Shown: positions 2,305 through 52,318 of the stretch, one piece after another
Position numbering within the stretch: the first letter of the stretch is position 1
How the letters are laid out: each line of letters starts with the position of its first letter
DNA from: Gemmatimonadales bacterium
Lineage (GTDB): Bacteria; Gemmatimonadota; Gemmatimonadetes; Gemmatimonadales; GWC2-71-9
DNA length: 64,000 nt
Assembly: GCA_036500345.1 (NCBI GenBank)
Contig: DASYCE010000007.1
Span: forward strand, 62,001 to 126,000
Reading direction: 5' to 3'
Notes under the pieces: generated by a model
The model's input: only the letters and a program-made list of their open reading frames with translations
Told to the model about the DNA's origin: nothing
Database searches by the model: none
Position numbers and translations under genes: made by a program

Positions 2305-2321
2305 CGTTCCTCCGTGTTCTG

Positions 2322-4249: not shown

Positions 4250-4262
4250 GGGAGTGCTCGCG

Positions 4263-4523
4263 TCAGGCGAGGCCGAGCTGCGAGACAAACCGATCCCATT
4301 CGGCGGGAGTGACCACGCCTTCGCGACGCAGCGGCTCCAGCGCGGCCATGATCTCGGCGCGGCTCCCGGAGATGCGGCGATCGCGCAGTTCGCCGATCAT
4401 CCGGGCGAACTTGTGCTCGTATTCGTTCTGCTTGAGCTCGCCGGCCTTGAAGGCAGCAGACAGCTTCTTGAGCTCGGCGGCGGCGCGGTCGGGGGAGATC
4501 GATGTCAGCGGGGCGTCGGGCAT
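4263..4523 (-). CDS. Small helical protein of unknown function
   Basis: This 86-residue protein starts at an ATG with an AGGAG site 6 nt upstream. It is charged and probably all-helical, with a segment [21 protein letters not shown] followed by [18 protein letters not shown]. The spacing of 'fewer than ten residues, then E.E/EYE' resembles SHOCT-like short C-terminal domains, but the match is too loose to name. It is the first gene of the ispG operon, with 13 nt between its stop and the ispG ATG. Confidence 0.7.
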
Positions 4524-4535
4524 TTCGGCTCCTGG

Positions 4536-4568
4536 AATTCCGGGAAAGCCCAAATCTAAGCATCCCGG
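4536..4568 (-). promoter_or_regulatory. Candidate promoter region of the ispG operon
   Basis: On the minus strand a TAGATT hexamer lies about 30 nt before the small-protein ATG (4523), with TTCACG 18 nt further upstream. A short inverted repeat (CCGGGA/TCCCGG) frames the same area. The match to a sigma-70 promoter is modest and position is the main support. Confidence 0.3.
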
Positions 4569-4596
4569 CGGATAGGCGTGAACCGGGTGCGGCCGG

Positions 4597-5589
4597 TCAC
4601 GACGAGGCGATCGGGAAGGCGATCGTGGTTCCGTCGGCTGCGACGTCGATGGAGCCGCGATGCGCCTCGATGATCCGCCGGGCGAGCGCCACGTCGGCGT
4701 CGAGCGTCGGCGGCGCCGCGCGCCGCAGCTCGATCCTGACGCTACCGCGCGCCGCGCCCGTACCAATCGTCATCGCCGATCCGGGGACGGCATGGCGGAC
4801 CACGTGTCGCAGGAGGAGGTCGAGCGCCTGCTGCAGCCGGATCCGATCGCCGATGATCCGCGGCAGCCCCGGCGCCGACTCGATCGTGAGTGAGACGCCA
4901 CCCTTCCGGGCGTCGGCCTCGAGCTGGGGACGGAGGCTCTGCAGCAGGTCGCCGACGCGCAGGCGATCGCGGCGCACTGTGAGCGCACCACGGTCGAGGA
5001 GTGCGATCTCCTGCAACCGTGCCAGCTCGGTCTCGGCCGCAGCAGTGCCGGCGCGCGCCGCTTCGAGCATCTCATCCTGATTGTCGTTCAGCGGTCCGAA
5101 ATGCTGTTCGAGGAGGATGTGCAGCGCGACGCGAGCGTCGTCGAGTTGGCGCCGGATCGCTGCCACGCTCTCGTCAATCAGGACCGCATGCTCCTGCACC
5201 TGCTCGGCGGCACGGCGTTCACGCTCGCGCACCCCCGCTTCCGCCATGGTGACCGCGCTGCTCAGGTGATCGACGACGTCCTCGATGGAATCGAGTTCAT
5301 CCGGTGTGGCGCCAGTCGCCGGCAACGCCGCGGTCCGCACCACGCCGAGCGGCGTCATTCTCCCGTCCCCGCGGGCGCGCGCCCCGGCCAAGCGTTCGAT
5401 GCGGCGAGTGACGTACCGCGTGTTCTGCCACGCGAGGGCGAGCGATCCGAGCGCGGAGACCGCGGCGGCCACGACAACCCACTCCGGCGCGGCGCGATGG
5501 TAGTGCCCCCAGTAGGCGAGGCCCGCAACGGTGAACACCCCGATGATCGCCGGAACGACCGCGAGGAAGAGGCGCTGCGAGATTCTCAC
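4597..5589 (-). CDS. Membrane-bound degenerate histidine kinase at the end of the kdp operon
   Basis: This 330-residue protein starts at a GTG that overlaps the kdpD-N stop (GTGA at 5589-5586). Two membrane helices (about 8-30 and 37-57) lead into a HAMP-like and coiled-coil region (about 110-200) and a C-terminal ATPase-like fold. The dimerisation segment keeps the typical end FGPLNDNQDEML, but the HE.RTPL phospho-acceptor box is replaced by LDDARVAL. The ATPase N-box lacks its asparagine (LLLRHVVRHA), and the DxGxG and GLGL boxes are absent. It is probably a pseudokinase. Its place behind kdpC and the KdpD sensor half suggests a scaffold or modulator of Kdp signalling; that is inference. 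Confidence 0.75.
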   Translation of the reverse strand: MRISQRLFLAVVPAIIGVFTVAGLAYWGHYHRAAPEWVVVAAAVSALGSLALAWQNTRYVTRRIERLAGARARGDGRMTPLGVVRTAALPATGATPDELDSIEDVVDHLSSAVTMAEAGVRERERRAAEQVQEHAVLIDESVAAIRRQLDDARVALHILLEQHFGPLNDNQDEMLEAARAGTAAAETELARLQEIALLDRGALTVRRDRLRVGDLLQSLRPQLEADARKGGVSLTIESAPGLPRIIGDRIRLQQALDLLLRHVVRHAVPGSAMTIGTGAARGSVRIELRRAAPPTLDADVALARRIIEAHRGSIDVAADGTTIAFPIASS

Positions 5590-6764
5590 GGCTCGGCCCG
5601 CGCATTCGCCAGGGACACGACCAGCACGTCGAGCCCCTGCGCGTTGCGCGTCAGCTGCTCGACGATCGACCGCCGGGTAAGATGATGCCACCAGCTGCTG
5701 CGTGACTGTCCCGCAACGATGAGGGTCACGCCGCGTTCGCGGGCAAAGGCGAGGATCGAGCCGGCGACGTCGGCCGACTCGAGCTTCACCACTTCGGCGC
5801 CCATCCCCTGCGCGCGCTGGATGTTCTCGACCAGCTTGCGCTGTACCACGGCGTCGATGCGCGCGGCACTCTCCTCCGGCGTCTGCACATGGACGCAATA
5901 CCAGTCGCGGTTGAGGCGGCCCGCGATGCGGCTTCCCTTCCGCAGCAGGATCGTGGTGTACTTCGGATGACTCGACATCGCGACGAGGATCCGGTCGACG
6001 GCACTCCGGTCGCTCCGTTTGCCGGCCGGCGACGCGACCGCGCCGCTGGTGATGGCGTCGCGGGTGCGATCGACCGAACTCGCGACCTCGCGAAGCGCGA
6101 GTTCACGCAGCGTGGCGAGGTTCTCTTCGGTGAAGAACGACGTCAGCGCGGTGGCGACCTTGTCGGGAGTGTAGATCTTCCCGTCGAGGAGCCGTTGGCG
6201 GAGGTCTTCGGCCGAGATGTCGAGGTTGATGACCTGGTCGGCGAGAGAGACCACCCAGTCGGGGACGGTTTCGCGAACGGTGACACCGAGCGTCTTCTGC
6301 AGGACGTCGTTGAGCGATTCGAGATGCTGCACATTGAGCGCGGAGATGACGCTGATCCCCTCGTCGAGGAGGACCACAACATCTTCCCATCGCTTCGCGC
6401 GTCCGGCGCCGGGGACATTGCTGTGGGCCAGCTCGTCGACGATCGCGACCTGCGGGCGCCGCGCCAGAATTGCGGCGACATCCATCTCCTCGAGGGTCAC
6501 GCCGCGATACTCGATCCGGCGCCGCGGAATCACCTCAAGGTCGCGCAGCTGTGCTGTGGTCTCGACACGGCCGTGCGTTTCGACGTAACCGATCACGACA
6601 TCGACGCCGCGAGCGCGAAGCTGGTGCGCTTCGGTGAGCATCCGGAAGGTCTTGCCGGTGCCGGCGGCGGAACCGATGTAGAGCTTGAGCTTGCCGCGCT
6701 CGCGGGCCTGGACGAGATCGGCGAATGACATTTCGCCGGGCGAGGGTCGAGGAGGCGGCGCCAT
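5586..6764 (-). CDS. kdpD: KdpD N-terminal sensor half (KdpD plus Usp domains)
   Basis: This 392-residue cytoplasmic protein equals only the first part of KdpD. It has the KdpD domain with the P-loop GSAAGTGKT near residue 32 and VIGYVETHGR, followed by a universal-stress-like domain (about 250-385, ending GVTLIVAGQSRSSWW). There are no membrane segments, GAF domain or kinase. E. coli KdpD is 894 residues with this part ending near 395, so the gene stops almost exactly at the natural domain border. The missing half is encoded at 11491-12987. It lies 39 nt after kdpC and would sense K+ or bind c-di-AMP/ATP as part of a two-piece KdpD. Confidence 0.9.
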   Translation of the reverse strand: MAPPPRPSPGEMSFADLVQARERGKLKLYIGSAAGTGKTFRMLTEAHQLRARGVDVVIGYVETHGRVETTAQLRDLEVIPRRRIEYRGVTLEEMDVAAILARRPQVAIVDELAHSNVPGAGRAKRWEDVVVLLDEGISVISALNVQHLESLNDVLQKTLGVTVRETVPDWVVSLADQVINLDISAEDLRQRLLDGKIYTPDKVATALTSFFTEENLATLRELALREVASSVDRTRDAITSGAVASPAGKRSDRSAVDRILVAMSSHPKYTTILLRKGSRIAGRLNRDWYCVHVQTPEESAARIDAVVQRKLVENIQRAQGMGAEVVKLESADVAGSILAFARERGVTLIVAGQSRSSWWHHLTRRSIVEQLTRNAQGLDVLVVSLANARAEP

Positions 6765-6803
6765 CAGAACTTCACCAGCGTGCCAAGTTGAGCCGCGTCG
6801 ACC

Positions 6804-7397
6804 TCATGGGCGCGTCCCGATCGGCCGCATCATGCCGTCGAGCGCGACGTTGAGGAGAAGGACATTGACGCGCGGCTCGCCGAAGAATCCGAACTGCCGC
6901 CCGATGACGTGCCGATCAACGAGCGCGCGAACCGCCGTGCTGTCGATGCCGCGCGCCCGGGCAACGCGAGCAACCTGCAGATAGGCATTGGCAGGCGAGA
7001 TGTCGGGATCGAGGCCGGATCCGGAACTGGTGACCATGTCGGCCGGGATCTTCCCGCGCACGGCGCCGTCATCCCTCACCGCCGTCGCGACCGCACCGGC
7101 AATCAGCGTATCGGCGAGCTTTCGGTCGGTCGGTCCCTTGTTGGTGCCACCCGACGCAGTGGCGTCATAGCCATTTCCCGCCGCCGACGGCCGCGGATGG
7201 AAGTACTCCGGCCGGGTGAACGCCTGGCCGATCAGCGCACTTCCCACCACGCGCCCGTTGACGACAACGAGTGACCCGTTCGCCTGGCGCGGAAAGACCA
7301 GCTGGGCGAGTCCGGTCACGACGCCGGGATAGACCACGCCGGTGAGGATGCAGAGCACCAGTGTCATCACGATCGCGGGACGAAGCTGGCGCATCAT
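6804..7397 (-). CDS. kdpC: Potassium-transporting ATPase subunit C
   Basis: KdpC is the single-span accessory subunit of the KdpFABC potassium pump. The 197-residue protein starts MMRQLRPAIVMTLVLCILTG, which supplies the one membrane helix (about 8-28). It keeps the family's RPSAAGNGYDATASGGTNKGPT and SGLDPDISPANAYLQV blocks. The ATG at 7397 is one nucleotide past the kdpB stop; a second ATG (7394) is next to it. The end of the protein (GEPRVNVLLLNVALDG) is also typical. Confidence 0.95.
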   Translation of the reverse strand: MMRQLRPAIVMTLVLCILTGVVYPGVVTGLAQLVFPRQANGSLVVVNGRVVGSALIGQAFTRPEYFHPRPSAAGNGYDATASGGTNKGPTDRKLADTLIAGAVATAVRDDGAVRGKIPADMVTSSGSGLDPDISPANAYLQVARVARARGIDSTAVRALVDRHVIGRQFGFFGEPRVNVLLLNVALDGMMRPIGTRP

Positions 7398-7398
7398 C

Positions 7399-9468
7399 TC
7401 AGACCAGCCTGAGCGAGACGAGGACGACGTCGAGGATCTTGATGCCGGCGAACGGCACGAGGATGCCGCCAACACCGTAGATCCAGAGATTGCGGCGGAG
7501 GATCGCCGCGGCGCCGGTGGGGCGATAGCGGACGCCGCGAAGCGCCAGCGGAATCAGCGCCACGATGATCAGCGCGTTGAAGATCACGCTGGCGAGGATC
7601 GCCGACTCCGGCGAATGCAGCCGCATGACGTTCAGGGTATTCAATACCGGATAGGTCGCCGCGAACATTGCCGGGATGATGGCAAAGTACTTCGCCACGT
7701 CGTTCGCGATCGAAAAGGTCGTCAGCGATCCGCGGGTCATCAGCAGTTGCTTTCCGATCTCGACGATCTCGATGAGCTTGGTCGGATTCGAATCGAGATC
7801 GACCATGTTGCCGGCTTCGCGCGCCGCCTGGGTGCCGGTGTTCATCGCGACGCCGACATCGGCCTGTGCCAGCGCCGGCGCGTCGTTGGTACCGTCGCCG
7901 GTCATCGCAACGAGGCGGCCCCCCAGCTGTTCGCGTCGGATCAGCGCCAGCTTGTCTTCCGGCCGTGCCTCGGCGAGAAAATCATCGACGCCGGCTTCCT
8001 GCGCGATCGCTGCGGCGGTGAGCGGATTGTCGCCGGTGATCATCACGGTGCGGATCCCCATCGCTCGCAGCCGGTCGAACCGCTCGCGCATCCCGCCCTT
8101 GACGATGTCCTTGAGATAGACGACGCCGAGCATTCGCGCAGAACCGTCGCTTCGCTCGGCGACGACCAGTGGCGTCCCTCCTTCGCGTGCGATCTGCTCG
8201 ACGATTCCGACCATCTCTACCGGCACCGTTCCGCCACCGTCCTGGACCCAGCGGGTGATGGCGTCACCTGCACCCTTGCGAAGCTGCACCGCCCCCATGT
8301 CGACGCCGCTCATCCGCGTCGACGCCGAGAACGGGACGAAGGTCATCGGTTGGTGATTCGCCGTCTCGCCAACAGGGCGGCCGCGGAGGTGGAACGCTTC
8401 CTTGGCAAGGACCACGATGCTTCGTCCTTCGGGCGTCTCGTCGGGAAGCGACGCGAGTTGTGCCCGATCGGCGAGCTGTTCGCGCGTGATCCCCTGCACC
8501 GGCCGGAATTCGACCGCCTGCCTGTTGCCGAGGGTGATCGTGCCGGTCTTGTCGAGGAGGAGCGTGTTGACGTCCCCCGCTGCTTCCACAGCGCGGCCGC
8601 TGGTGGCGATGACGTTCTGCTGGATCATCCGATCCATCCCGGCGATCCCGATCGCCGAGAGGAGGCCGCCGATCGTGGTCGGGATGAGGCAGACGAGGAG
8701 CGAGATCAGGACGGGAATCGCGACCGCGCCACCGGAATGGACCGCGAACGGCTGCAGCGTCACGACCGCCAGCAGGAAGATGATCGTCAATCCGGAGAGG
8801 AGGATCGTCAGCGCGATTTCGTTCGGCGTCTTCTGACGCCTGGCGCCCTCCACCAGCGCGATCATCCGGTCGAGAAAGGTTTCGCCGGGGTTCGCGGTGA
8901 TGCGAATGACCAGGAAATCGGACAGCACCTTCGTCCCGCCGGTCACTGCCGACCGGTCGCCGCCCGATTCACGCACCACCGGCGCCGACTCGCCGGTGAT
9001 CGCTGATTCGTCCACCGATGCGACTCCCTCGATCACTTCGCCATCGCCGGGAATCAGGTCGCCGGGATGGCAGACGACGACGTCGCCTGCGCGCAGCTGG
9101 CTGGCGGAGACGGCGGTGAACCGATCGTGGCGCAGGGGGTCGGCAAGCCGTTTCGCCTGGGTCTCACGCCGGCTCTTCCGCAATGCATCGGCTTGCGCCT
9201 TGCCGCGACCCTCCGCCATCGCCTCGGCAAAGTTGGCAAAGAGCACGGTGAACCAGAGCCAGATCGCGATCTGCACGGTGAATCCGGTGTGGCCACGGCC
9301 GCCGGCGACGTCGCGCACCAGGATCGCGGTGGTGACGATGCTGCCGATCAACACGACGAACATCACCGGATTCCGTATCATGTGGCGCGGTGTGAGCTTG
9401 CCGACGGCATCGCGCATGGCTCGGCGCACGATCGGCGAATCGAAGAGCGGTCGCGTGGCGACGGCCAT
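7399..9468 (-). CDS. kdpB: Potassium-transporting ATPase ATP-binding subunit B
   Basis: KdpB is the P-type ATPase that energises K+ uptake through KdpA. The 689-residue protein has the TGES loop (158-161), the phosphorylated aspartate in DKTGT (D306), the nucleotide-binding region and [10 protein letters not shown] in the P domain. Seven membrane helices are expected, and the length matches the family (about 680-700). The start is one base after the kdpA stop. The sequence is complete and intact. Confidence 0.97.
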
Positions 9469-38546: not shown

Positions 38547-41108
38547 TCAACCACACTCCGAGAAGCCGCAGACGTGGCACTTGGCGCACCCCTCTGCGTA
38601 TTCGAGCTGCGATCCACAATCAGGGCACGCGCCGGCGAGGGTCTCGTGCGTGCCGCCGAGGATCATCTGCTCGCCGCCGTCACTGATGATCGCAGCGGGC
38701 GGGGTGGGGACATCACTCGACGAAATCGCATCGACCGGCTGCACCCCGCGCGTGCTGAGGAGTTCCTGCTGCACTCCCTGCTTGTCGGCGGCGTACTTCT
38801 CGAGCGCGATGCCGACCGCATCCGGTACCGACATCACCTTGCTCGGCCCGAGCCCGATGGCGCGGTCGGACGAGATTCCCCGCAGCTGACGATGAATCGC
38901 GGCGAGCGGAATGCCGGAGCGCAGCGCGAGTGAAATCAGCCGGCCGATCGCCTCCACATCGGCCATCAGCGCGCCGCCGGCCTTGCCGAGCGACATGAAG
39001 ACTTCGAACGGCTGACCCTTGTCGTCCTCGGTGATCGTGACGTAGAGATCACCGAGCGGCGTGGAGACGCGGCGAGTCGACCCGCGAAGGAGTTCGGGGC
39101 GCGACCGCTTCTGCCGGCGCTGGAGATTCTCGCTCTCGAGTTCGTGGACCAGCTGCTTGAGCTGCACCACTTCCGCTTCGAGCTCCACGGCGTGGGCTGC
39201 CTGGTCGGCTGCCGCGGCGCGGGCGCTGAACTCCGGCGAGCTCGCCGGGAACTCTCCGGTCGCCATGACGAGGTCGCCGCGCGCTTCGGACTTGCCGCTG
39301 GTCGTCGCCTGCTCGTGCACCTTCTTCGCCGTCGAACCGGTCGACAGCACCTGCATGTCGCGCGACCCGTCCCGGTATACCGTGACGCCCTTGCAGCCGA
39401 GCTCGTAGGCGAGACGGTAGATCTGCTCGACGTACTCCTCGGTGGCGTCGTTGGCGAAGTTGCATGTCTTGGAGATGGCCGAGTCGTTGTATGCCTGGAA
39501 CGCCGCCTGCATCCGTATGTGCCACTCGGGCGCGATCTGGTTGGCGGTCACGAAGACCCGCTGCCACCGCGCCGGGATTTCGTCGAAGTTGATGTGCCCC
39601 TGCTCGGCGATGCGGCGCACCAGTTCGGCGCTGTACCATCCTTCGCGCTTCGCGATCGCCACGAAGTCGTCGTTCACGTCGGGCATCAGGACCCCGGCCT
39701 GATTGCGCATGAACGCGACGGCGAAGAGCGGCTCGATCCCCGACGAGCAGGTTGCGATGATCGAGATCGTGCCGGTCGGCGCCACGGTGGTCACGTTGCA
39801 GTTCCGCAGCTTCCGCATCGGCCGGATGCGGTTGCCCTGGGCGTCGCGAGCGCAGGTGGCGTCAGGTCCCCAGATGCTCTGCTCCCATTCGGGGAAGACG
39901 CCGCGCAGCGTGGCAAGGCGCTCCGATTCGTGCTTCGCCTCGTCGTCGACGAAGCGCTGAATTTCGCGGCCGAGGGTGACGGCGTCCTCGGAATCGTACG
40001 GCACTCCGATGCGGACGAAGAGATCGGCAAGCCCCATCACGCCAAGTCCGATGCGCCGGATCCGCTGCGCCAGCGACGTGATCTCGGGCAACGGGTAGTG
40101 GTTGGCGTCGATCACGTTCTCGAGGAAGTGCGTGGTGAGTTGCACCACCCGGCGGAGCCGTTCCCAGTCGATGTCGCTCTGTTCGGTGACGAACGCGCCG
40201 AGGTTGATCGATCCGAGGTTGCAGACGTCATATGGCAGCAGCGGTTGCTCGCCGCACGGATTGGTCGCTTCGTACGAGCCGAGATGGGGAACCGGGTTGT
40301 AGTGATTGGCGCGGTCAATGAAGAAGACGCCTGGTTCGCCGGTCTTCCACGCGCCGTGAATGATCTTCTCCCAGATCATCGAGGCGCCGAGCTTGCCGGT
40401 GACCTGCGCGGTGCGCGGATCGACCAGGTCGTACTCCTCGTCGTTGGCGAGCGCCTCCATGAAGGCGTCGGTGATCGCGACCGAGATGTTGAAGTTGGTG
40501 ATCTTGGTCGTGTCGCTCTTGCACTCGATGAAGTCGAGGATGTCGGGGTGATCGACGCGGAGAATGCCCATGTTGGCGCCGCGCCGCGTCCCGCCCTGCT
40601 TGACGACGTCGGTCGAGGAATCGTAGAGCGACATGAACGACACCGGTCCCGACGCAACGCCCATGGTCGAGCGGACGATGTCATTGCGGGCCCGGAGGCG
40701 CGAGAAGGAAAAGCCGGTGCCGCCGCCGGACTGATGGACCAGCGCCATCGACCGCAGCGTGTCGTAGATCCCGCTCTCGCCATTGGAGAGGGTGTCGTCG
40801 ACCGGGAGGACGAAGCACGCAGAGAGCTGGCCGAGCGGCCGGCCGGCGTTCATCAGCGTCGGCGAATTCGGCATGAAGAGGCGCTGCGCCATGAGGTCGT
40901 AGAACGCGCTGGCCAGTTCGGTGACCGCACCTTGCGAAGCGCCGTACTTGGCGTCGGGCGCGGCGACGGTGGTCGCGACGCGCCAGAAGAGATCCTCGGG
41001 ACGTTCGGCAGGGAGCCCCGCGTCGTCCTTGATGAGATAGCGCTTTTCGAGGACGGTGATCGCATTCGGCGACAGGTCGACTGCGCCTCGCGAGGCAGCG
41101 GTGCTCAT
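38547..41108 (-). CDS. nrdJ: Class II (B12-dependent) ribonucleotide reductase
   Basis: NrdJ makes deoxyribonucleotides with adenosylcobalamin and needs no oxygen. The 853-residue protein has the first redox cysteine in SACFVLPVDD (C98), the active-site set NPCGEQPLLPYDVCNLGS (N283, C285, E287, C296), and GGTGFSFSRLR near 130. A C-terminal zinc-ribbon-like tail (CPDCG and CAKCHVCGFSECG) carries the regenerating cysteines. No N-terminal ATP-cone is visible, so overall activity control by dATP may be absent. No intein or break is seen. Confidence 0.95.
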   Translation of the reverse strand: MSTAASRGAVDLSPNAITVLEKRYLIKDDAGLPAERPEDLFWRVATTVAAPDAKYGASQGAVTELASAFYDLMAQRLFMPNSPTLMNAGRPLGQLSACFVLPVDDTLSNGESGIYDTLRSMALVHQSGGGTGFSFSRLRARNDIVRSTMGVASGPVSFMSLYDSSTDVVKQGGTRRGANMGILRVDHPDILDFIECKSDTTKITNFNISVAITDAFMEALANDEEYDLVDPRTAQVTGKLGASMIWEKIIHGAWKTGEPGVFFIDRANHYNPVPHLGSYEATNPCGEQPLLPYDVCNLGSINLGAFVTEQSDIDWERLRRVVQLTTHFLENVIDANHYPLPEITSLAQRIRRIGLGVMGLADLFVRIGVPYDSEDAVTLGREIQRFVDDEAKHESERLATLRGVFPEWEQSIWGPDATCARDAQGNRIRPMRKLRNCNVTTVAPTGTISIIATCSSGIEPLFAVAFMRNQAGVLMPDVNDDFVAIAKREGWYSAELVRRIAEQGHINFDEIPARWQRVFVTANQIAPEWHIRMQAAFQAYNDSAISKTCNFANDATEEYVEQIYRLAYELGCKGVTVYRDGSRDMQVLSTGSTAKKVHEQATTSGKSEARGDLVMATGEFPASSPEFSARAAAADQAAHAVELEAEVVQLKQLVHELESENLQRRQKRSRPELLRGSTRRVSTPLGDLYVTITEDDKGQPFEVFMSLGKAGGALMADVEAIGRLISLALRSGIPLAAIHRQLRGISSDRAIGLGPSKVMSVPDAVGIALEKYAADKQGVQQELLSTRGVQPVDAISSSDVPTPPAAIISDGGEQMILGGTHETLAGACPDCGSQLEYAEGCAKCHVCGFSECG

Positions 41109-41247: not shown

Positions 41248-43554
41248 CTATTTCGGCGAGTTTTCCACAACGACCCCGCGCCGACGCTCCACCCGCGTCC
41301 CATTCCCTTCCACCGTCAGCTCCAGCTGATACCGACCCGCTGGCACCCCCTGCAGGGCGATCGCCCGGCGGATATCCGCGGTGCTCCCGGGAAACTGGAG
41401 CTCCTCCCGCAGGACCACCGATTCAGTCCCTGATCCGAATAGCCGGGAGAGAAAAGACCGCTGGCGCAGCAGGCCGAGACGAACAGTGTACGGCGTCCGA
41501 GGCCTGAGTCCGTACAGTTGAAAGAAGACCGACATCGTCTCGCCCCGCGGGTAGACATTGTCGGGCGACAGCCATGCCGTGTCTCCCGGCGCGTCGATCC
41601 ACGGGAGGACGCGACCGGGAATGCCCAGGAGCACCGATGAGACCCCGAGTGAGGTGTCGCGCACAGCGGGAACGTCGAGCGAGTCGAGCGGAAAGACCAC
41701 GCCGACCTGCCGGCTCGCTTCGATATTGAGCCGCATACGATACGCTCCGGGCGGGACCGGGAGCTCAGCGCGCGAGGCAACGAGCGACGAAGGTGCCGGT
41801 GCCGGCGGCGTGTGCAGTACCTCGACCGTGTCGAGTGACGCGACCGGCCGGCCGGAGCGATCGACGAAGACCGCGCGCAATGTCACCGGGATCGCATCGG
41901 ACGACCTCACGCCGGCGACGCGACGCAGCATGGCGGCGTCGATGGCGTAGACGATGTGGACCAACGCCATCGAGTCGCGCCTTCCCGCAGCGAGCCACTC
42001 GGCGCGCCCGCCGAGGGTCACCGGATATCGGCGCGGCCACGACGTCGTGGTCGTTGCCAGCGAGATGTTCCTCTTTCCGGCCACGCGATCCCGCTCCGCG
42101 AGAATGCCGCGCGTCACCGGTCCGGAGTTGAGCAGTTCCGCGAGCCCGGGCAGGTCGCGCTCGTGCTCGGCGAGCGCATCGACTCCGACATTCAACTGCA
42201 TCACGCCTTCGATCAATCGATAGTCGTCGGGTTGCTCGTCGGCGGCGAAGTGGAGCACCAGATCGCCGTCGGGCTGCCGGTATCTCCACGTCTCGTTGCC
42301 AAAGCTCGGCTCGTCGCCAACGGTGGGGTCGATGATCAGCGAAGCGACCCGCACGGCGGGACGAAAGATCGACGGCGGCGGCGGAGCGAACTGCCGCGGT
42401 TGCGACACCGGCCAGACGATCCGCGTCGTGGGGACGCCGTGGCGGATCCAGACAATGCCGCGATCATCGAGCTCCGGGTCGTGACTCTGGTAGACCTCGA
42501 TCCCCCAGCGATAGACGCGGTGGAACGGCGGCAGCCGGAAGTGCCGCTCCGCGTAATCCCGGCGGCGAAAATGTTCGGCGAGACGGGCATCCGCCGTGCG
42601 CAGATCGGAGGCGGCGCGCGCGGTCCAGAACGTCCGCAGCCACGTCGCGCGATCGGCACCGTGCAAGCCATCGAACTGCCGCAGTGCGGTATCGCTTGCG
42701 ATCGGCTGCAGGTCTCGGCGGTATCCGGCAACAACTTCCGGGTCGTCACTTGCCGCGGCGGCGTAGTACGCCAGGGCGAACGGCGGGGCCTGACCGGGCT
42801 CGGTGGGGAGTGTGTCTGCGGTGAGCGGCAGCGTCCGCGCCAGTTCGAGATCCGCCATCGCGGGGTCGGGCGACACCATCCGCGCCCGCTGAAACGCCAG
42901 TCGCGCCGAATCGGGGTTCCCGACCATCCGTTCGAGGCGGCCGCGATCGAGCAGCAGGGTCGGATCCCATCCGAGCGGCGATCGCTGCAGGAGGCGCAAC
43001 GCGCTGAGCGCGGCGTCGACCGGCGCATCGAGCCGCGCTTCGAGCGCCGTCTCCACGAACGCCTGCACCCCATCGACGAAGGAGGGATCGGCGCGAATCG
43101 TGTGTGCGAAGGCTTGGGCCGCGCGCGAATCGCGATCGACCTTGAACATCGTCCAGAGACCGCCGGCGAAGCCGGAGGCGCGGTTCGGCGCTCGGGCGAG
43201 GGCGAGTCCCAGCCCGAACCACGGGTACGGCCATCCCGGTTGCAACTCGGTCGCCCACTGGAATTCGCTCTCGGCGTCGTCGACGCGATGCTGGTTGCCG
43301 CTCAGGTCGTCGATGCGCAGCGCGAGGAAACCGAGGCGGAGATGCAGGAGCGCATCGTCGCGATCAGCGCGGGCGACGACAATCATCCGCGCTTCGCGAT
43401 CGTGCAGGGTGGTGGTGTCGTAGGTCAGCTGGAGCGAATCGCGGAACACCTGCAGCGCTGCCCGTTGCGGCGGAGTCTGCGCCGGCGCTACTGCCGCGTT
43501 GCCGGCGAGCGCCAGCGACACACCGAATGCTGCCAATCCACGCCCGGTGATCAT
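41248..43554 (-). CDS. GWxTD-like secreted protein 4 of the tandem set
   Basis: This 768-residue exported protein has a signal peptide (about 1-26, ending APAQ). It follows the plan of the set: an N-terminal TPR-like part (ESEFQWATELQPGWPYPWFG near residue 75), a helical middle, and the core YAERHFRLPPFHRVYRWGIE then LDDRGIVWIRHGVPTTRIVW. Next comes a hydrophobic patch (ETWRYRQPDGDLVLHFAADE) and then several beta-sandwich-like repeats. In GWxTD-domain proteins the core reads GWxTDRGxxYI.YG.PD; here the GWxTD letters are lost. It is the most divergent of the four. It follows the preceding paralog by 14 nt. Function unknown. Confidence 0.82.
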   Translation of the reverse strand: MITGRGLAAFGVSLALAGNAAVAPAQTPPQRAALQVFRDSLQLTYDTTTLHDREARMIVVARADRDDALLHLRLGFLALRIDDLSGNQHRVDDAESEFQWATELQPGWPYPWFGLGLALARAPNRASGFAGGLWTMFKVDRDSRAAQAFAHTIRADPSFVDGVQAFVETALEARLDAPVDAALSALRLLQRSPLGWDPTLLLDRGRLERMVGNPDSARLAFQRARMVSPDPAMADLELARTLPLTADTLPTEPGQAPPFALAYYAAAASDDPEVVAGYRRDLQPIASDTALRQFDGLHGADRATWLRTFWTARAASDLRTADARLAEHFRRRDYAERHFRLPPFHRVYRWGIEVYQSHDPELDDRGIVWIRHGVPTTRIVWPVSQPRQFAPPPPSIFRPAVRVASLIIDPTVGDEPSFGNETWRYRQPDGDLVLHFAADEQPDDYRLIEGVMQLNVGVDALAEHERDLPGLAELLNSGPVTRGILAERDRVAGKRNISLATTTTSWPRRYPVTLGGRAEWLAAGRRDSMALVHIVYAIDAAMLRRVAGVRSSDAIPVTLRAVFVDRSGRPVASLDTVEVLHTPPAPAPSSLVASRAELPVPPGAYRMRLNIEASRQVGVVFPLDSLDVPAVRDTSLGVSSVLLGIPGRVLPWIDAPGDTAWLSPDNVYPRGETMSVFFQLYGLRPRTPYTVRLGLLRQRSFLSRLFGSGTESVVLREELQFPGSTADIRRAIALQGVPAGRYQLELTVEGNGTRVERRRGVVVENSPK

Positions 43555-43568
43555 CGCTGGTGCGGCGG

Positions 43569-45806
43569 CTACTTCACCACTGTGAATGTTCGGTCGCGGG
43601 CCACGCGGGCGTTGCCGCCGGCGGTCACGACGATCTCGAGCCGGTAGGTCCCCGGCTTGAGTCCGCTGATATCGACATCGCGCTGGACCGGGTCGGGAGT
43701 TGCAGCCGCGGTCGGAGCGAAGGCGAGCCGAAGCGCCGGCGTACTCTGGCGATCGTGGTAGATGCTCAGTACGGCGTGGTACTGCGATCCCGCCGGTACG
43801 CCGCCGACTTCGCAGTAGAGTTGCATCGGTTCGGAGCGATGAAATGAACTCAACGGGTTGACCCACACGGTGTCGCCGCGAGCGGTGGTCCATGGCAGCG
43901 GCACGCTGCGGGAGCCGAGCGCAAGATCCGACAGGTCGAGCCGCAGTGCGCCTGTTGCGGCGACACGGACCGGCTGCACCGGCGCGATCATGCCACGGCC
44001 CGGCGTCTCGACTTCCACCCGCACGGTATACTCACCCGGAGGGAGATGCATCGGCACGCGGCCGACGAGGAAGCGCTCGTCCGCGATCGGTTGCGCCGCA
44101 ACGAAGCGACGCAGCGTATCCACCGTGGCGATGACGGCATTGCTTCCCTGCCGCCGCACCGATGCCCTGATATGCACCGGGTACACCACCGGACCGGCGG
44201 CAGGTGGCGCGTACAGCGACGTGCCCGGAATCGCGAAGGCGATCTGCAGCAGCGGTCCCGCGGCGTCGACGCCCACGGCAATCGCGTTGACCGTCGCGTC
44301 AAGCGGAAGCTCATAATCCACCGCGTGGCTCTCACCGCTGGCGATGCTGCTGTCGCCCTGGGCCCGCTCCTGCCGTTGCAGGGCCAGCGCACCGCGTTTC
44401 CCCTGCGACAGCATTTTGCCGTAGGTCGCGCTGGTGTTCTCACGCGAATAGAGCATCTCCTGCGCAGTCTGCGCCGTCCAGCTCGCACCATAGGTTTCGA
44501 CCGCTTCGCCCCGCGCGGCCATCCCCTTCACGTCGCCGTGTCCCGTGGCGCGAAGCGGCGTGCTCAATGCCAGGATATCGAAGACGCTCGAGACGCGGTG
44601 GAAGCCGGTCGAGTCATCGGTCCGCACAAAGTTGAAGAGCAGGTCACCGCCGGTCGCAGCGGCGGCGTAGTGCCAGGTCTCGTTCGGCGGCACGCCGACC
44701 TGGTTGAACCAGGTGTGCTCGTCGGGCGGTCCGTGCAGGATCCAGACGACCCCCCGGTCATCAAACGCGGGCCCGATCGGATTGGTGTCGACGGCGATGT
44801 CGGCGACGTAGTGCGGTGTCGGACGGACGAACGCCAGGCGCGCATGATCGAGGCGGTGATAGTGTTCGCGGAGCCGGGCGGCAACCGATCGCTGTTCTCC
44901 CGCGTCGTCAAATCCCAGGAAGCGTTGCAGCAGTGCCACGCGCGCGGTGGCGTCGTCCTGGTCGAAGCGTCGCGCGATCGAATCGGGGAGGAGCGCGACG
45001 AGATCGTCACGATAAAGTCGCACGACGGCGCTGTCCGCGGCGGCCAGGCCATCGAACCAGTCCTCGGCGCCGGCGTCGTCGCCGATGGCAAAGTCGCTCC
45101 GCGCCATCTCCAGCAGCGTTGCGGGATCGCGCGGCTGTCGCCGCAGCAGCGCAACGGCGAACCACCGGGCCGAGTCCGGACTCCCGGCGAGCCGTTCGAG
45201 GCGTACGCGATCGAGCGCGACGACGGCGTTGGCCGCGTCGATGTACGGGGCACCGTGGCGCAGCGCCGCCAGTGCAGCTTGCAGCTCTATCGGATGCGCG
45301 TTGGCAACGGCGATGGTTGCAAGGGTCAGCAACGGCTCCGGATCACCGCCCGCGACGGAGCTGCTCCGCTCGAACTTCGCAGCGATATCGCTCGCCTGGT
45401 TGCGGTGCAGAATTCGCGCGACGCTCCCGGCAGTGACTGGCTGATTGTCGATGAGGTTGAGTTGTGCCAGGCCGCGTCCGAGCCACCCGGCGGCCCAGTC
45501 GCGATGGGCGGAAGTCACCGCCGCGAACGTCGCATCCGCGATGGTGAAGTCGATCCGGCGCTGTTCCAGCTCGCCCTGTCGCAACTGCGCAAAGCCGAGG
45601 CGGAGTTGTGCGGCATCGTGCCGTGAGCGCTGGCGCATCTCGGTCGACAGCCGATCTTCGATGGCGATGATTGCAGCGGTGTTGTCGATCGCACGCAGCG
45701 AATCCCGGAATCGATCGAGGACGGCCGGATCCGCGGAAGACTGTGCAGCGGCGCCGTGCAGCGCCCCGATCACGATCGCGACGGCCATCGGGTGGCTGCG
45801 AATCAC
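43569..45806 (-). CDS. GWxTD-like secreted protein 3 of the tandem set
   Basis: This 745-residue exported protein starts at a GTG overlapping the previous stop (GTGA at 45806-45803) with a signal peptide to about residue 22. The TPR-like region is less conserved (TSAHRDWAAGWLGRGLAQLN). The core reads HYRRLDHARLAFV, FDDRGVVWILHGPPDE and PPNETWHYAAAATGGDLLF. The C-terminal half shares MLYSRENTSATYGKML, GTSLYAPP, GEYTVRVEVETPGRGMI and LALGSRSVPLPW with its neighbours. These beta-rich segments may form a binding surface outside the inner membrane. Confidence 0.84.
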   Translation of the reverse strand: MIRSHPMAVAIVIGALHGAAAQSSADPAVLDRFRDSLRAIDNTAAIIAIEDRLSTEMRQRSRHDAAQLRLGFAQLRQGELEQRRIDFTIADATFAAVTSAHRDWAAGWLGRGLAQLNLIDNQPVTAGSVARILHRNQASDIAAKFERSSSVAGGDPEPLLTLATIAVANAHPIELQAALAALRHGAPYIDAANAVVALDRVRLERLAGSPDSARWFAVALLRRQPRDPATLLEMARSDFAIGDDAGAEDWFDGLAAADSAVVRLYRDDLVALLPDSIARRFDQDDATARVALLQRFLGFDDAGEQRSVAARLREHYHRLDHARLAFVRPTPHYVADIAVDTNPIGPAFDDRGVVWILHGPPDEHTWFNQVGVPPNETWHYAAAATGGDLLFNFVRTDDSTGFHRVSSVFDILALSTPLRATGHGDVKGMAARGEAVETYGASWTAQTAQEMLYSRENTSATYGKMLSQGKRGALALQRQERAQGDSSIASGESHAVDYELPLDATVNAIAVGVDAAGPLLQIAFAIPGTSLYAPPAAGPVVYPVHIRASVRRQGSNAVIATVDTLRRFVAAQPIADERFLVGRVPMHLPPGEYTVRVEVETPGRGMIAPVQPVRVAATGALRLDLSDLALGSRSVPLPWTTARGDTVWVNPLSSFHRSEPMQLYCEVGGVPAGSQYHAVLSIYHDRQSTPALRLAFAPTAAATPDPVQRDVDISGLKPGTYRLEIVVTAGGNARVARDRTFTVVK

Positions 45807-48022
45807 TTGGTCACCGTGAACGCGCGCCGGCGGACCGCGCTCCCACCCGACGGAGCCATGACAGTGACCTCGAGGACATAGTTCCCGGTCCCGAGGCGAC
45901 CGATATCGAGCTCGCGATGCACCCGGTTGGGAACCTCGGTCGCAATCCCCTCAAAGCCGAGATCGAGCACCGCATCCTTGTGGCCGGATCGGAAGACGCG
46001 GTATTCCGCATGGTATCCGCCGCCTCGGGCGACGCCGCCGACTTCGAAGAAGAGCTCCACCGGTTCCGAGATCCGGAAGGTACGGAGCGGATTGATCCAT
46101 GCCGTGTCCGCGGCACCGGTGGCCCACGGCAGCGGAACGCTCCGCGAACCGAGGGCGAGATCGGAGAGCGTCACCGATGGCGTGGAGAGCGCCGCAACGT
46201 GCACTTGATGCGGTGCCGCGATGACGCCGCGGCCGGGGGTCTCGACCGAGACACGAACCGTATAGTCGCCCGGCGGAACGCTGATCGGCAGGCGACCGAG
46301 GAGGTCTTCGCCCTCGGGAATCTGCCGCGGTGCGACGAAGTTCCGCGTGGTGTCGACGGCGACGATCAATTCACCCGCGGCGTTCTTCACCGCCACCCGC
46401 GTCCGGACCGGATAGACGACGCGCCCGGTCGACGGCGGCGCGTACAGCGACGTGCCGGGGATCGCGAAGACGACCTGCAATTCCGGCGTCGAGCCAACCG
46501 ACCCCACCGCCAGGACATCCACCGTCGCGGTGAGCGGCAATTCGTATCGCATCTTCCAGCTGTCGGTCTGCAATCCGACGCGGATACTCTTGCGTCCCTC
46601 GGATCGTTCGGCGACCTGCGAGGCATGGGCGCCCGACGCGCCAGCCGACAACATCTGGCCGTACGTCGGCGACAAGTTTTCCCGCGAGTAGAGCAACTCG
46701 CGTGCGGCCTGTGCCGTCCACGCCGCGCCGTAGGTTTCCATCACGCCGCCGCCCTCCAGCCGCGCACGGACGTTCCCCTGCCCGGTATGCTGCGCAGCGG
46801 CACCGAGCCCTGCGATGTCGAGGAGGCTCTCGTACATCCGCCATCCTTGCGCGCTGTCGGGCTTCGCGAAGTGAAAGAGCAGGTCGCCACTCGGCCGCCG
46901 GTACACCCAGCTCTCGTTGGGTGGCAGTCCGATCATCGAGAGGGTGGCACGATCGTCGGGCTCGCCGTGTCGGACATAGATGCGGCCGCGATCATCGAAG
47001 CGGGAGTCGGTGGGATCGAAGACCCGGAGCGAGTCGTAGCGCCCCGAAACCATTCCGAAATGGCGATGCGAATAGTCGAGCCGACGGTAGTGCTCGCGCA
47101 GCCGCTCGGCACCGGCGTTGACCGCATCCGGGTCGCGCGAATCCCAGAAGGTGCGCATCAGCGACGCGCGGGCCGCCGGCTTCGACGCGTCGAAGAGATG
47201 GAGCATCGAATCGGAAAGAACCAGCGACAGGTCGAAGCGATACATGCGAAGCGTCGCGCTGTCGGCCGACGCGAGGCCGGCGTACCACGGCTGCACACCG
47301 GAGATTCTTCCGGCTGCGAGCTCCGTCCGTGCGAGTTCGAGCAGTCCCAGCCCTCGCGTGCTGCCCTCGTCGGTCAGCGCACCGAATTCCGCGACGGCAG
47401 AATCGACATCACCGGCTTCCCGCTCGACGCGACCCCGCAGCAGCAGGATGTCGGGGTTCCGCGCAATCGGCGCGGCGCCAACGTCACGGAGCGCCTCGAG
47501 CGCGACGGCGAGATGCGCCGGAATTCCCTGCCGCAGCGCTTCGTTGCCCACGTCGAGCAGCCCTTCGGTGAACATCGAATCGACTTCCGCGCTCCGGCTG
47601 AAATGCCGTGCCGGCGTGCGGTAGGCATCATGGCCCAGGGAAAGAAGAAAGCCTTTCAGCGCATCCGAGATCCGGTCGCTCGAGATCAGCTCTGCCTTGC
47701 CGAGGCCGTACCAGGCATACGGCCATTCGGGCTTCAGTTCGGTCGCCCACTGGAATTCACCGGCGGCGTCGTTGGCATGCGAGGCACCGGTCGTGAGGTC
47801 GGTCAGACGGAGCGACAGGAATCCCAGCCGGAGGTGCCGCATCGGATTGTCCCGATCGGCGCGAGCGGAGTCGACCTGGGCCGCCTCGATGGCGAGGAGC
47901 GCAGTAGTGTCGGTGCTGCGGGAGAGGGAGTCGCGCCACTGGCGCACCACGGTGCGCTCCGAGGGCGTCTGTCCGCGCAACGGAGCGGCGAGCGATGCCA
48001 GCACCAGCACGAAGGCCGCCAC
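45803..48022 (-). CDS. GWxTD-like secreted protein 2 of the tandem set
   Basis: This 739-residue protein is close to its neighbours: ATELKPEWPYAWYGLGKAEL, REHYRRLDYSHRHFG, FDDRGRIYVRHGEPDDRATL, PPNESWVYRRPSGDLLFHF and LLYSRENLSPTYGQML are all present. The GTG start at 48022 gives MAAFVLVLASLAAPLRGQ, a hydrophobic signal that lacks the usual positive residues. The frame stays open upstream to non-AUG codons (ATA at 48049) that would add basic residues, so the true start is uncertain. The nearest upstream stop (TAG, 48046) belongs to the preceding paralog. Confidence 0.82.
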   Translation of the reverse strand: MAAFVLVLASLAAPLRGQTPSERTVVRQWRDSLSRSTDTTALLAIEAAQVDSARADRDNPMRHLRLGFLSLRLTDLTTGASHANDAAGEFQWATELKPEWPYAWYGLGKAELISSDRISDALKGFLLSLGHDAYRTPARHFSRSAEVDSMFTEGLLDVGNEALRQGIPAHLAVALEALRDVGAAPIARNPDILLLRGRVEREAGDVDSAVAEFGALTDEGSTRGLGLLELARTELAAGRISGVQPWYAGLASADSATLRMYRFDLSLVLSDSMLHLFDASKPAARASLMRTFWDSRDPDAVNAGAERLREHYRRLDYSHRHFGMVSGRYDSLRVFDPTDSRFDDRGRIYVRHGEPDDRATLSMIGLPPNESWVYRRPSGDLLFHFAKPDSAQGWRMYESLLDIAGLGAAAQHTGQGNVRARLEGGGVMETYGAAWTAQAARELLYSRENLSPTYGQMLSAGASGAHASQVAERSEGRKSIRVGLQTDSWKMRYELPLTATVDVLAVGSVGSTPELQVVFAIPGTSLYAPPSTGRVVYPVRTRVAVKNAAGELIVAVDTTRNFVAPRQIPEGEDLLGRLPISVPPGDYTVRVSVETPGRGVIAAPHQVHVAALSTPSVTLSDLALGSRSVPLPWATGAADTAWINPLRTFRISEPVELFFEVGGVARGGGYHAEYRVFRSGHKDAVLDLGFEGIATEVPNRVHRELDIGRLGTGNYVLEVTVMAPSGGSAVRRRAFTVTK

Positions 48023-48045
48023 GCTGGCGGCGCGCCCGGGGAACG

Positions 48046-50373
48046 CTATGGCACCAGCACGAATTCCTGACGTCGGCTCGTCCTTTCGTGACCGCCGGAC
48101 GACACGGTCACTTCCAGAAGGTATCTCCCCGGCTTCTGCTTGCCGAGGCCGATCTCCTGATGGATCACGGCAGTCGACCCGGTGCTGCGCTGGGTGGTGG
48201 TCACGTGGAAGGCGGCACGTCCCTTCCCGAACAAGCCCAGCACCCGGCTCACGATCGACCGGTTGCCGGGTCGCGTCACCGAGAGTTCGTAACGGTAGGA
48301 CGCGCCGCGAGGAACTCCGTTCACTTCGAAATACAGCTGCAGCGGCTCCGTGGCGCGGAATTCCGCCGACGGACTGATCCAGATGGTATCACCCTGGACC
48401 CCGCTGCGCCACACCGGAACGCTCCGCGCGCCGACGGCAAAATCCGACAGCGACAGCGCCGTGTCGCGTGCCGACGAAACGTCGATGGTATCCCGATCGC
48501 TGATCACCCCGGCCCGCCCGACCTCGAACCCAACGCGAACAGTGTAGTGACCGCGGGGAACGGCCAACGAGATGACTCCCACCCGTTCCCCCCACCGGTC
48601 GGTGGCGAGAGCGTCGACCGCACCGACAGTGGTATCGGCGGTCGCCGCCACCGTGCCGTCGCGGCCGAGAATCGCCGCTCGCACCCGCAGCGGTGCCACC
48701 GAATCGCCGTGAAGCCCGCGAACCGCCTCCGACGGCAGGGCGAACGCCACCTGAACCATCGGTGAGGCCGAGTCGCCTCCCACGGCGAGCACCTGCGCCG
48801 CAACTGGCAGCGCCGCGGCGTAGCGATGCGGCCAGTCATCGGTGGTGGTGCCGATCCTGATGCTTCGCTGTCCGATATTGCGCTCTTCGGCCTCGATCCC
48901 CGACGCACTTCCCCGGCCGGCGCCGAGCATCCGCGGATAGATCGGATCGAGATTCAACCGCGACCGGACGATCTGTTCGGCGAGTTGCGAAAGCGCCGCA
49001 TCGCTGGCGCGCTGCCGAAGTTTTCCGGCGCTGTCCTGCGAGATCCTCACCTGCCGCGCGCCGACACGCGGCTGGATCGGAAGCCCTTCACCATGCAGGT
49101 CGCCGGAGTTCTCCAATCGGATCGCGTTGGCATATCCGACCAGGTCAAGCGCGCTCTCGACCAGGCGAAAATCGGTGACCCCCTCCTCGGCCACGAAGTG
49201 GAAGAGAAGATCGCCAGTTGCCCGGTGATACACCCATGATTCGTTGAATGCCACGCCGGGAAGTTCGAGCGAGGCACGATCGTCGGGCGTCCCCTGCCGG
49301 ATGTAGATCACGCCGCGGTCGTCGAAATCGACCACAGCCGGGCGGTATCGTTCGATGATATCGTAGTGCCGGTGCGTCGACGCGACGCGGTAGTTCCGCC
49401 GGGCATAGTCGAGCCGGCGGTAGTGCTCGACCAGTCGCTCGCCGGGGAGACGCAGTTCGTCGCGATCGCGGAGGTCCCAGAAACGGCGCAACAGCGTCAC
49501 GCGTGCCGGATCGGCGTCGGCGTCGAACGTCTTGAGCGTGCTGTCGGGAAGAACGAACTGCATATCGCTGCGATACAGCGCCGCCGTGGCCGGATCGGCG
49601 ATGCCGAGGCCGTGGTACCAGGGATCTCCGCCATCGCGGCGGCCGAGTCGGAAACGGGCCCGTGCCTGTTCGAGCAGCGCAACGGCGTCCTGCGGATGCA
49701 GCGCCACGAGCTCGTCGGCGGCAGCAATGGCGGAATCGGGGGAACCGACTTCACGTTCGATGCGCGCCCTGGCGAGGAGCACCTCGGGGTTGTGACTCGC
49801 CGGCGTCGCGGCCGCGTGGCGCAATGCATCGAGCGCGACGCCCATCCGGACATTGATCCGTTGCCGCAGCGCCGTATTGGTCAGCTCCACCAATCCACGC
49901 ACGAAGGCCGGGTCCACTTCGGCGCTCCTGGCGAAATCCGCCGCGGACCGGGTCAACGCGTCGCGACCCAGTGCGTTCTGCAGCCCGCGCAGGATCGGGA
50001 TCGGCGAATCGCCGACGCCGAGCTCGGCGAGGCCGAGACCGAACCATCCGTACGGCCATTTCGCCTGCAGGTCGACGGCCCACTGGAATTCGGATGCGGC
50101 GTCCTCGTAGTGCTTGTGCCCGGCGAGGTCGCCCAGTCGCAGCGCGATGAACCCAAGGCGCAGGTGCGCCGTGGCGCTGTCGCGCAGCTCGTGGCTGGCG
50201 CGGGAAATCAACCGCTTTTCGGCGGCGAGGAGCGAGACGGAGTCGTTGACCGCGGCGAGGGAATCCCGGAAGGCCTCGATATCGGCTCGTTGTGCGGTCG
50301 ACTGCCCCGCTGCACCGATCACCGGGACGGCAACGAGAGCGGCGAGCAACCAGCCGGCGGAGCGCGATCCCAT
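48046..50373 (-). CDS. GWxTD-like secreted protein 1 of the tandem set
   Basis: This 775-residue protein has a good signal peptide (MGSRSAGWLLAALVAVPVIG). The TPR-like region (AASEFQWAVDLQAKWPYGWF) precedes EHYRRLDYARRNYRVASTH, FDDRGVIYIRQGTPDDRASL and NESWVYHRATGDLLFHFVAE, followed by beta-rich segments ending in a surface-type LLEVTVSSGGHE. It is first of the four and lies 43 nt after the amidase gene, so all five genes probably form one transcript. The GWxTD family has no established biochemical role that I know of. Confidence 0.85.
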   Translation of the reverse strand: MGSRSAGWLLAALVAVPVIGAAGQSTAQRADIEAFRDSLAAVNDSVSLLAAEKRLISRASHELRDSATAHLRLGFIALRLGDLAGHKHYEDAASEFQWAVDLQAKWPYGWFGLGLAELGVGDSPIPILRGLQNALGRDALTRSAADFARSAEVDPAFVRGLVELTNTALRQRINVRMGVALDALRHAAATPASHNPEVLLARARIEREVGSPDSAIAAADELVALHPQDAVALLEQARARFRLGRRDGGDPWYHGLGIADPATAALYRSDMQFVLPDSTLKTFDADADPARVTLLRRFWDLRDRDELRLPGERLVEHYRRLDYARRNYRVASTHRHYDIIERYRPAVVDFDDRGVIYIRQGTPDDRASLELPGVAFNESWVYHRATGDLLFHFVAEEGVTDFRLVESALDLVGYANAIRLENSGDLHGEGLPIQPRVGARQVRISQDSAGKLRQRASDAALSQLAEQIVRSRLNLDPIYPRMLGAGRGSASGIEAEERNIGQRSIRIGTTTDDWPHRYAAALPVAAQVLAVGGDSASPMVQVAFALPSEAVRGLHGDSVAPLRVRAAILGRDGTVAATADTTVGAVDALATDRWGERVGVISLAVPRGHYTVRVGFEVGRAGVISDRDTIDVSSARDTALSLSDFAVGARSVPVWRSGVQGDTIWISPSAEFRATEPLQLYFEVNGVPRGASYRYELSVTRPGNRSIVSRVLGLFGKGRAAFHVTTTQRSTGSTAVIHQEIGLGKQKPGRYLLEVTVSSGGHERTSRRQEFVLVP

Positions 50374-50416: not shown

Positions 50417-52318
50417 TTACCGCTCTTGAACCTTTTCCGGCCGACGGGCCATCTCCTGCAGGTAATCGGTGATTCCCTCGACGATCCCCGCCGCGTATGC
50501 GCGCCGCCCCTGCGCCGTCCGCAAGGCATTCTCCTGGTCGGGGAACATCAGAAAGAGCCCTTCGGTGAGAATCGCGGGGTACCACGTCGGCCGGACCAGC
50601 GCGAGATCGCCGCGAGTGACCGCGAGATCGGGAAGTGCAAGATGGGTGACAAGGCGCTGTTGAACGTCGCGCGCGAGCGCCAGTGACTGCGGATGATTGA
50701 AATAGGTGCTGGTGCCGTTGTTGGTGAACGGGTTGAGCCCGTCGGGAAGTGCGTTCTGATGGATCGACACCAGGAGGTCGGCATCGATCGAATCGGCGAA
50801 GGCGACTCGCGCACCGAGTGACACCGGACGATTATCGATGCGTGTCAGGCGCACGTCGGCGCCGGCGGCAGCGAGCTCATCGCGCACCACGAGCGCGACG
50901 GAGAGATTCGCTTCCGGCTCACAGAGTCCGGTCGGGCCGCACGCGCCGTTGGGCGGATGCCCCGGGTCGATGACGATCCGGCGTCCCGCGAGCGGATGGA
51001 GTGAATCGATCGGCGGCGGTGCGCGGAAGTCGTAGATCAGGTCCGTGCCGTCGATACGGCTTCGCCATCCCCACAGCGGGCGGTCGAAGGAGATCTCCAG
51101 TGCCACTCGGTCGGCCGATTCCTGGCGCGGCGTCACCAGCGAGACGAACCGCTGATGCGCGCCGTACCGGATCCAGTTGGTGTTCGACACGGCGTCAAAG
51201 AGATGGATCACGATGCCCCGATCGGTTTCCTCGACCTGCGACGGCACCGCACGAGTCAGCGGGATGCGCAGCGTCGCGCCGTACGCCGTTGTCGCGAGAA
51301 TGGGGGAGCCGACGATGGCAGACCGGGCGTCGTCCACCGCACGCGCGAGATGCACCTCGCTCAGCGGAACCCAGGCGACGGACTGACGTGACAGTCGGAG
51401 CCTCGCCTGATCGCCGGTCCACATGTCCAGCCGAGTCCTGGTGCCGGACGGAAAGAACCAGGTATAGGTGCCGCCCGGATACGCTCGACCAATCGTGATC
51501 CGCTCGGCGCTGGTGTCGTTCGACAGCAGCACCGCGAGGGGACCGGTACTGGTGCGGGTGACGCTGATCGGCCAGCGCAGACGCGTGGTGTCGCCGGCCA
51601 GGATGATCTCGAGTTCGGGGGGCTGACCCGTCGTCGCGACGTGAGCGCCGGGGGCAAGCTCGCCGTTCCGCGCCGGATTCAGCGAGCCGCGAACGGTCGC
51701 GACGTAGCGATCGTCGTGCACCGGACGAACGAAATTGCGATCGTCGTGATCGAATGCGCGCACCCCTTCGCGCACCGGATCGGCGATGGAATCCGACGCG
51801 AAGCGGATCACCGTCCCGGTTGAGGTCCGGAGCCGCACCTCGGCACCGGGGGCGGCACGCACCGTCAACGGCAGCGGCTCGTCGGGCGGCATGGCGATGT
51901 CACCGGTCGGCGACAGGGAGTGCGGGTCGACCCAGGCACCGACCTCTCGCACCCATCCTGCGCGCAGCAGTCGCAGCGACGATGTCGCGGAATCATGCCC
52001 GGCCCGCGCCGTGATTCGCAGCGTGAACGCGGAGTCAGCGGGGATCGCCACCCACGCAAGCCACGCCCCGTTTGGCGCCACATGCGCCGGCTGCCCGGCT
52101 ACGGTGACCGTCGCATCGCCGTTGCCGGAAGTGCCGAAGAGGAAGATCGAATCGCCGACATCAAGCGCCGTATTCGGCTGCGGGTAGGCGACCACCACGC
52201 GGAGCGCCCCGTGGACCGGCGGCACCGGCGGGAGCGAATCGGACTGCTGCGCGCAGGCGCTCCCGGTCACCGATGTCAGCAGCACGACAGCGCACGTAAG
52301 CTTCTTGAATGGCGTCAC
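50417..52318 (-). CDS. N-acetylmuramoyl-L-alanine amidase with large N-terminal extension
   Basis: The C-terminal 200 or so residues form an Amidase_3 domain with all zinc ligands and the catalytic glutamate visible: RIVIDPGHPP, GLCEPEANLSVAL, LLVSIHQNALPDG and AILTEGLFLMFP. It cleaves the bond between MurNAc and the stem peptide. The first 400 residues carry a signal peptide (about 1-24) and beta-rich modules, one AMIN-like (IVIHLFDAVSNTNWIRYG), which could position the enzyme in the envelope. It starts at a GTG (52318) opposite the PP2C gene and leads the GWxTD-like set. Full length is 633 residues. Confidence 0.9.
   Translation of the reverse strand: MTPFKKLTCAVVLLTSVTGSACAQQSDSLPPVPPVHGALRVVVAYPQPNTALDVGDSIFLFGTSGNGDATVTVAGQPAHVAPNGAWLAWVAIPADSAFTLRITARAGHDSATSSLRLLRAGWVREVGAWVDPHSLSPTGDIAMPPDEPLPLTVRAAPGAEVRLRTSTGTVIRFASDSIADPVREGVRAFDHDDRNFVRPVHDDRYVATVRGSLNPARNGELAPGAHVATTGQPPELEIILAGDTTRLRWPISVTRTSTGPLAVLLSNDTSAERITIGRAYPGGTYTWFFPSGTRTRLDMWTGDQARLRLSRQSVAWVPLSEVHLARAVDDARSAIVGSPILATTAYGATLRIPLTRAVPSQVEETDRGIVIHLFDAVSNTNWIRYGAHQRFVSLVTPRQESADRVALEISFDRPLWGWRSRIDGTDLIYDFRAPPPIDSLHPLAGRRIVIDPGHPPNGACGPTGLCEPEANLSVALVVRDELAAAGADVRLTRIDNRPVSLGARVAFADSIDADLLVSIHQNALPDGLNPFTNNGTSTYFNHPQSLALARDVQQRLVTHLALPDLAVTRGDLALVRPTWYPAILTEGLFLMFPDQENALRTAQGRRAYAAGIVEGITDYLQEMARRPEKVQER

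Follow-up and report, generated by a model that had tools for sequence, protein, structure and literature searches.

Four tandem paralogs related to the GWxTD family beside an amidase gene in a Gemmatimonadales genome

The window considered here, a stretch of 64,000 nucleotides from the genome of a Gemmatimonadales bacterium (3.3 Mb in 32 contigs; its close named relatives are all Gemmatimonadetes MAGs), carries on the minus strand an Amidase_3 gene followed by four intact paralogs of 739-775 aa, designated GW1-GW4. The four-copy array arose mostly by lineage-specific expansion; its family is widespread and uncharacterised, and the array is no new kind of system. Its products are read, with a probability of about one half, as exported, non-catalytic, multi-domain scaffold proteins of the cell envelope that diversified after duplication. 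A preliminary description of the same DNA had proposed an undescribed system, a proposal that is not borne out, as most relatives keep a single copy at the same place; a complex of four parts therefore cannot be the general function.

The locus and its four products

The features on which the analysis is based are the following (positions in the window).

50417..52318, minus strand: Amidase_3 N-acetylmuramoyl-L-alanine amidase, 633 aa, with zinc-site-type motifs DPGH / E / IHQNA / TEG
48046..50373, minus strand: GW1, 775 aa; signal peptide, TPR-type front, GWxTD-type core, beta-rich rear; syntenic ancestral copy
45803..48022, minus strand: GW2, 739 aa; architecture as GW1
46817..47227, minus strand: GWxTD-type core of GW2, residues 266-402; helix RLxEHYRR, DDRG helix, GxP turn, strands with NESWVY
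43569..45806, minus strand: GW3, 745 aa; architecture as GW1, front fast-evolving, rear half near GW2
41248..43554, minus strand: GW4, 768 aa from the ATG at 43554; older duplicate with orthologs in the genus
38547..41108, minus strand: B12-dependent ribonucleotide reductase (RNR) type, named by reading the sequence; conserved downstream flank, 139 bp past GW4

From the amidase through GW1, GW2 and GW3 to GW4 the gaps between genes are 43, 23, -4 and 14 bp, so that the five genes are compatible with one transcript, which the amidase gene likely heads, in agreement with the preliminary description. The reading frame of GW4 is open up to 43893 (ORF 41248-43893), and its likely start is the ATG at 43554, which opens a signal-peptide-like stretch and from which the stop codon of GW3 is separated by 14 bp. 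A consensus promoter and terminator scan of the locus returned sites no more frequent than in shuffled sequence, and the PADLOC anti-phage defence models gave no match to the four GW proteins or the amidase.

GW2-GW4 share 35-41% identity with GW1, and orthologs about 60% identical, with intact frames, are present in other genomes, so that the array of four real paralogs is no chance effect. The export proposed earlier for all four is supported by a Sec-type hydrophobic N-terminus, with no lipobox, read by eye in each. Moreover, TPR_14 scores above its cut-off in GW1 and GW4, and the Pfam models TPR_14 and TPR_16 together support a helical-repeat front.

The relationship to the GWxTD family also holds. 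With a curated cut-off of 28 bits, the whole-protein scores against the NCBIfam model TIGR04514 are 28.7 (GW1), 40.3 (GW2), 22.6 (GW3) and 23.9 bits (GW4), the first two above the cut-off and the last two just under it, while all four copies exceed it when the scores are summed over the stretches of each frame in a genome scan. The Pfam model PF20094 (gathering cut-off 26.9) misses three of the four copies and reaches only GW3, at a sub-threshold 16.5 bits. TIGR04514 recognises 38 of 39 aligned homologs with an E of 0.01 or lower, and PF20094 recognises five of them at E 0.01. The literal G-W-x-T-D motif is absent from GW1-GW4, where [FL]DDRG stands in its place, and DDRG or a near form occurs throughout the 39 homologs. 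Since 38 of these match TIGR04514, the absence of the GW letters characterises the subfamily as a whole; the family is not scored by the GWxTD letters, and GW1-GW4 and their homologs are accordingly read as a motif-less subfamily.

The core and the predicted structure

In the four copies the core follows the pattern [FL]DDRGxxxxxxGxP ... NE[ST]WxY. Nine of its positions (R307, H311, R314, D343, G353, P355, W372, Y374 and F385, in GW2 numbering) are invariant in 39 of 39 aligned homologs, the window copies included, and the core is for this reason constrained, not degenerate. The earlier wording of a degenerate core thus stands for the GW letters, which are gone in all four proteins, but not for the domain, which is strongly conserved and shares the loss with the whole subfamily.

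An AlphaFold2 model of GW2 (739 residues) was built on the 39-row alignment, with a pLDDT of 85.8 and a pTM of 0.72. It places helical hairpins at residues 20-321, the core at 304-397 and two beta sandwiches at about 500-738; together with the Pfam matches, this agrees with the TPR-like front and beta-rich rear of the preliminary description. In the core a small sheet accompanies two helices, RLxEHYRR (304-321) and DDRG (344-352). In Foldseek the full model matches TPR superhelices as well as Ig/FnIII-like proteins, RbmA among them; as overall folds these matches are weak (TM by query 0.11-0.21). A search of a viral structure library gave generic repeat and beta-sandwich matches only. With the whole protein as query, sequence searches of solved structures returned essentially TPR matches; with the core, they returned no significant match. 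A separate model of the core (pLDDT 80.4) had a best E of 0.26 against solved structures in Foldseek. The GxP ... WxY pattern had prompted a BamE/SmpA-like fold as a candidate for the core, which found no support: no BamE was among the top 50 Foldseek matches, and the hhalign probability was 0.5% against a single, approximate BamE sequence. By profile and by fold, no convincing enzyme match was found for the core, and no catalytic family was found for GW1-GW4; the clear structural match to a known enzyme family that would have counted against the preliminary description was likewise not seen.

Distribution, duplication history and neighbourhood

The GWxTD family is widespread in the phylum: a sample of 150 good Gemmatimonadota genomes contains 112 with matches (110 above the family cut-off), up to 12 per genome. 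In 80 genomes of Acidobacteriota, the phylum of L074, no full-length relative was found, and weak partial matches only were seen in 6 of them. Of the 41 genomes searched as relatives, 30 have a match, the window genome being counted. Within its own genus the copies number two (G001, G009), three (G004, G005, G006, G007, G008) or four (the window), with the arrays of G002 and G003 broken by contig ends; outside the genus a single copy normally occupies this syntenic position. Exceptions are L068, which has a pair, L070, which probably has one too, and L035, where a contig end cuts the second copy. In the phylum search at most three candidates were scored per genome, and copies beyond three were not counted.

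In the tree, GW1 clusters with its syntenic counterparts in the genus, GW2 and GW3 belong to a group of middle copies, and GW4 lies in a deeper group, which may join the second copies of L068 and L070 (support 82/84), although this placement is uncertain. The order of the GW1, middle (GW2/GW3) and GW4 groups along the locus is constant across the genus. The ancestral copy, by synteny, is GW1; of the duplicates, GW4 is older and GW2 and GW3 came later. The strong divergence of the duplicates, claimed before, is supported, and some of them are older than the genus. The halves of the proteins have diverged unequally: GW1 and its L043 ortholog are 71-74% identical over front and core and 45-47% over the rear, and the middle copies L046 and L047 are 25% identical in front and 41-45% in the rear. 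Further paralogs were also observed elsewhere. In the window genome, two additional, diverged ones lie on either side of a protein that has a carboxypeptidase regulatory-like domain (L075, 7970-13846), and genome G004 has a tandem run of three (L080, 5751-13093) apart from the amidase locus.

The neighbourhood follows the order PP2C, amidase, (PD40 and outer-membrane-barrel-like protein), GWxTD, (kinase), B12-type RNR in two families of the order, and the loci of the own genus are without the PD40/outer-membrane-barrel-like gene and without the zinc-ribbon kinase gene. Where these genes occur, the former (L036, 4901-7786, and several relatives) encodes a protein with an HELTH zinc-peptidase-like motif, a PD40 propeller match and a weak Omp85-like end and lies between amidase and GWxTD, and the latter (L036, 10134-12005, and relatives) is a Ser/Thr kinase that combines a zinc ribbon with PEGA and a C-terminal TonB domain (TonB_C), found between GWxTD and RNR in most. 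In genome G009, GW1 and the intact amidase gene enclose a fragment of a second amidase (L024, 11264-13312), with about 1.6 kb separating the two.

At a different site of the window genome, L078 (G000:C32), a canonical GWxTD protein (7101-8537) adjoins a PorV/PorQ family protein (105 bits, above cut-off) and a 1345-aa protein with a sub-threshold match to a T9SS sorting tail (20.6 bits, cut-off 23); the region (1811-8537) is possibly a type IX-like secretion locus, here in a member of Gemmatimonadota.

Alternative readings and comparison with known families

The scaffold role is inferred from the domain types, the constraint on the core and the history of the copies. The partner bound by the TPR solenoid would be a protein or a peptide. 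The GWxTD core may serve for interaction or docking, as a small alpha+beta module to which the invariant R/H/R/D/W/Y residues would give stability, and both Ig/FnIII-like sandwiches could act as spacers or surface binders. GW1 would retain the ancestral single-copy role, and GW2-GW4, which arose by duplication, would have specialised, divergence being fastest in the front for the middle copies and in the rear for GW1; the set would then yield a diversity of partners, not four obligatory parts of one machine.

It is possible, at lower odds than the scaffold reading and on the whole unlikely, that the four proteins and the amidase form a single complex for cell-wall remodelling, with the GWxTD proteins recruiting or regulating the enzyme. 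The amidase is immediately upstream on one likely transcript, AnmK- and MurQ-type cell-wall recycling genes (named by reading the sequence) are nearby, and the linkage noticed in the window is conserved: the amidase is adjacent to GWxTD or one gene away at 23 of the 29 loci with a readable upstream side, the window included, across two families. Nevertheless, the amidase is absent from six syntenic loci that keep GWxTD (L027, L028, L039, L040, L091 and L100), two of them with three GWxTD copies, and a search of the six whole genomes, two of which are only 84-86% complete, gave no full-length ortholog but short weak amidase-domain matches or none. The persistence of GWxTD after loss of the amidase weakens a dedicated partnership and makes the amidase no obligate partner. 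Furthermore, the amidase-bearing loci outside the genus are mostly single-GWxTD, and the amidase is absent near more distant profile matches. An elaborate variant, in which the paralogs constitute a novel hetero-oligomeric envelope scaffold whose copies specialise through different halves, and which the adjacent phosphatase/kinase genes control and link to the cutting of peptidoglycan, is very improbable and the least credible of the readings considered.

Somewhat less likely than the amidase complex is the view that domain recombination or gene conversion among the copies has shaped the array into a diversity-generating set of surface proteins. GW2 resembles GW1 in front (46-49%) and GW3 in the rear (46-55%), the fronts of GW2 and GW3 sharing 33-36% (43569-48022); front and rear trees disagree on the placement of GW3, and there are further GWxTD tandem runs in the genus. 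Given the long branches of the front tree, which are possibly false joins, the conflict over GW3 is tentative and uneven rates could mimic the pattern; moreover, orthologous groups hold their gene order across the genus, contrary to free shuffling. A shade more doubtful still is a core that is an enzyme domain, with a putative active site made of the R-x3-H-x2-R helix and the DDRG aspartate. The invariant polar residues R307, H311, R314 and D343 could indeed be an active or ligand site, which is a point that speaks against the scaffold reading, and a new enzyme fold is conceivable, as no solved fold matches the core. On the other hand, the same residues could equally be structural salt bridges, and the canonical GWxTD proteins encoded elsewhere in this genome, with which only RG, G, P and W align, do not have the histidine of the R-x3-H-x2-R helix.

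Among the papers searched for GWxTD, TIGR04514 and PF20094, none was found to mention the family, and none reported an experiment with a bearing on its function. The locus, whose neighbourhood is conserved and whose invariant residues are defined, serves as a syntenic anchor, and this combination makes a first functional test of this common family practical.

Compared with known systems, the likeness to RbmA and other tandem FnIII/Ig-like proteins resides in the two beta sandwiches: RbmA leads the Foldseek matches of the full model (E 2.3e-5), with 12% identity and an rmsd of about 11 A across both domains, which denotes a common fold class only. TPR envelope proteins such as PrsT, PilW and MamA, whose models match many of the homologs, resemble GW1-GW4 in the helical repeat front, a generic TPR likeness with no PEP-CTERM, pilus or magnetosome context seen. 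The closest kinship is with the uncharacterised GWxTD proteins of TIGR04514 and PF20094, through a homologous core with RG helix, GxP turn and W-x-Y strand. The two canonical GWxTD proteins of the same genome are shorter, carry the domain near the C-terminus and have no TPR match, whereas in GW1-GW4 the order is TPR, core and beta-rich rear.
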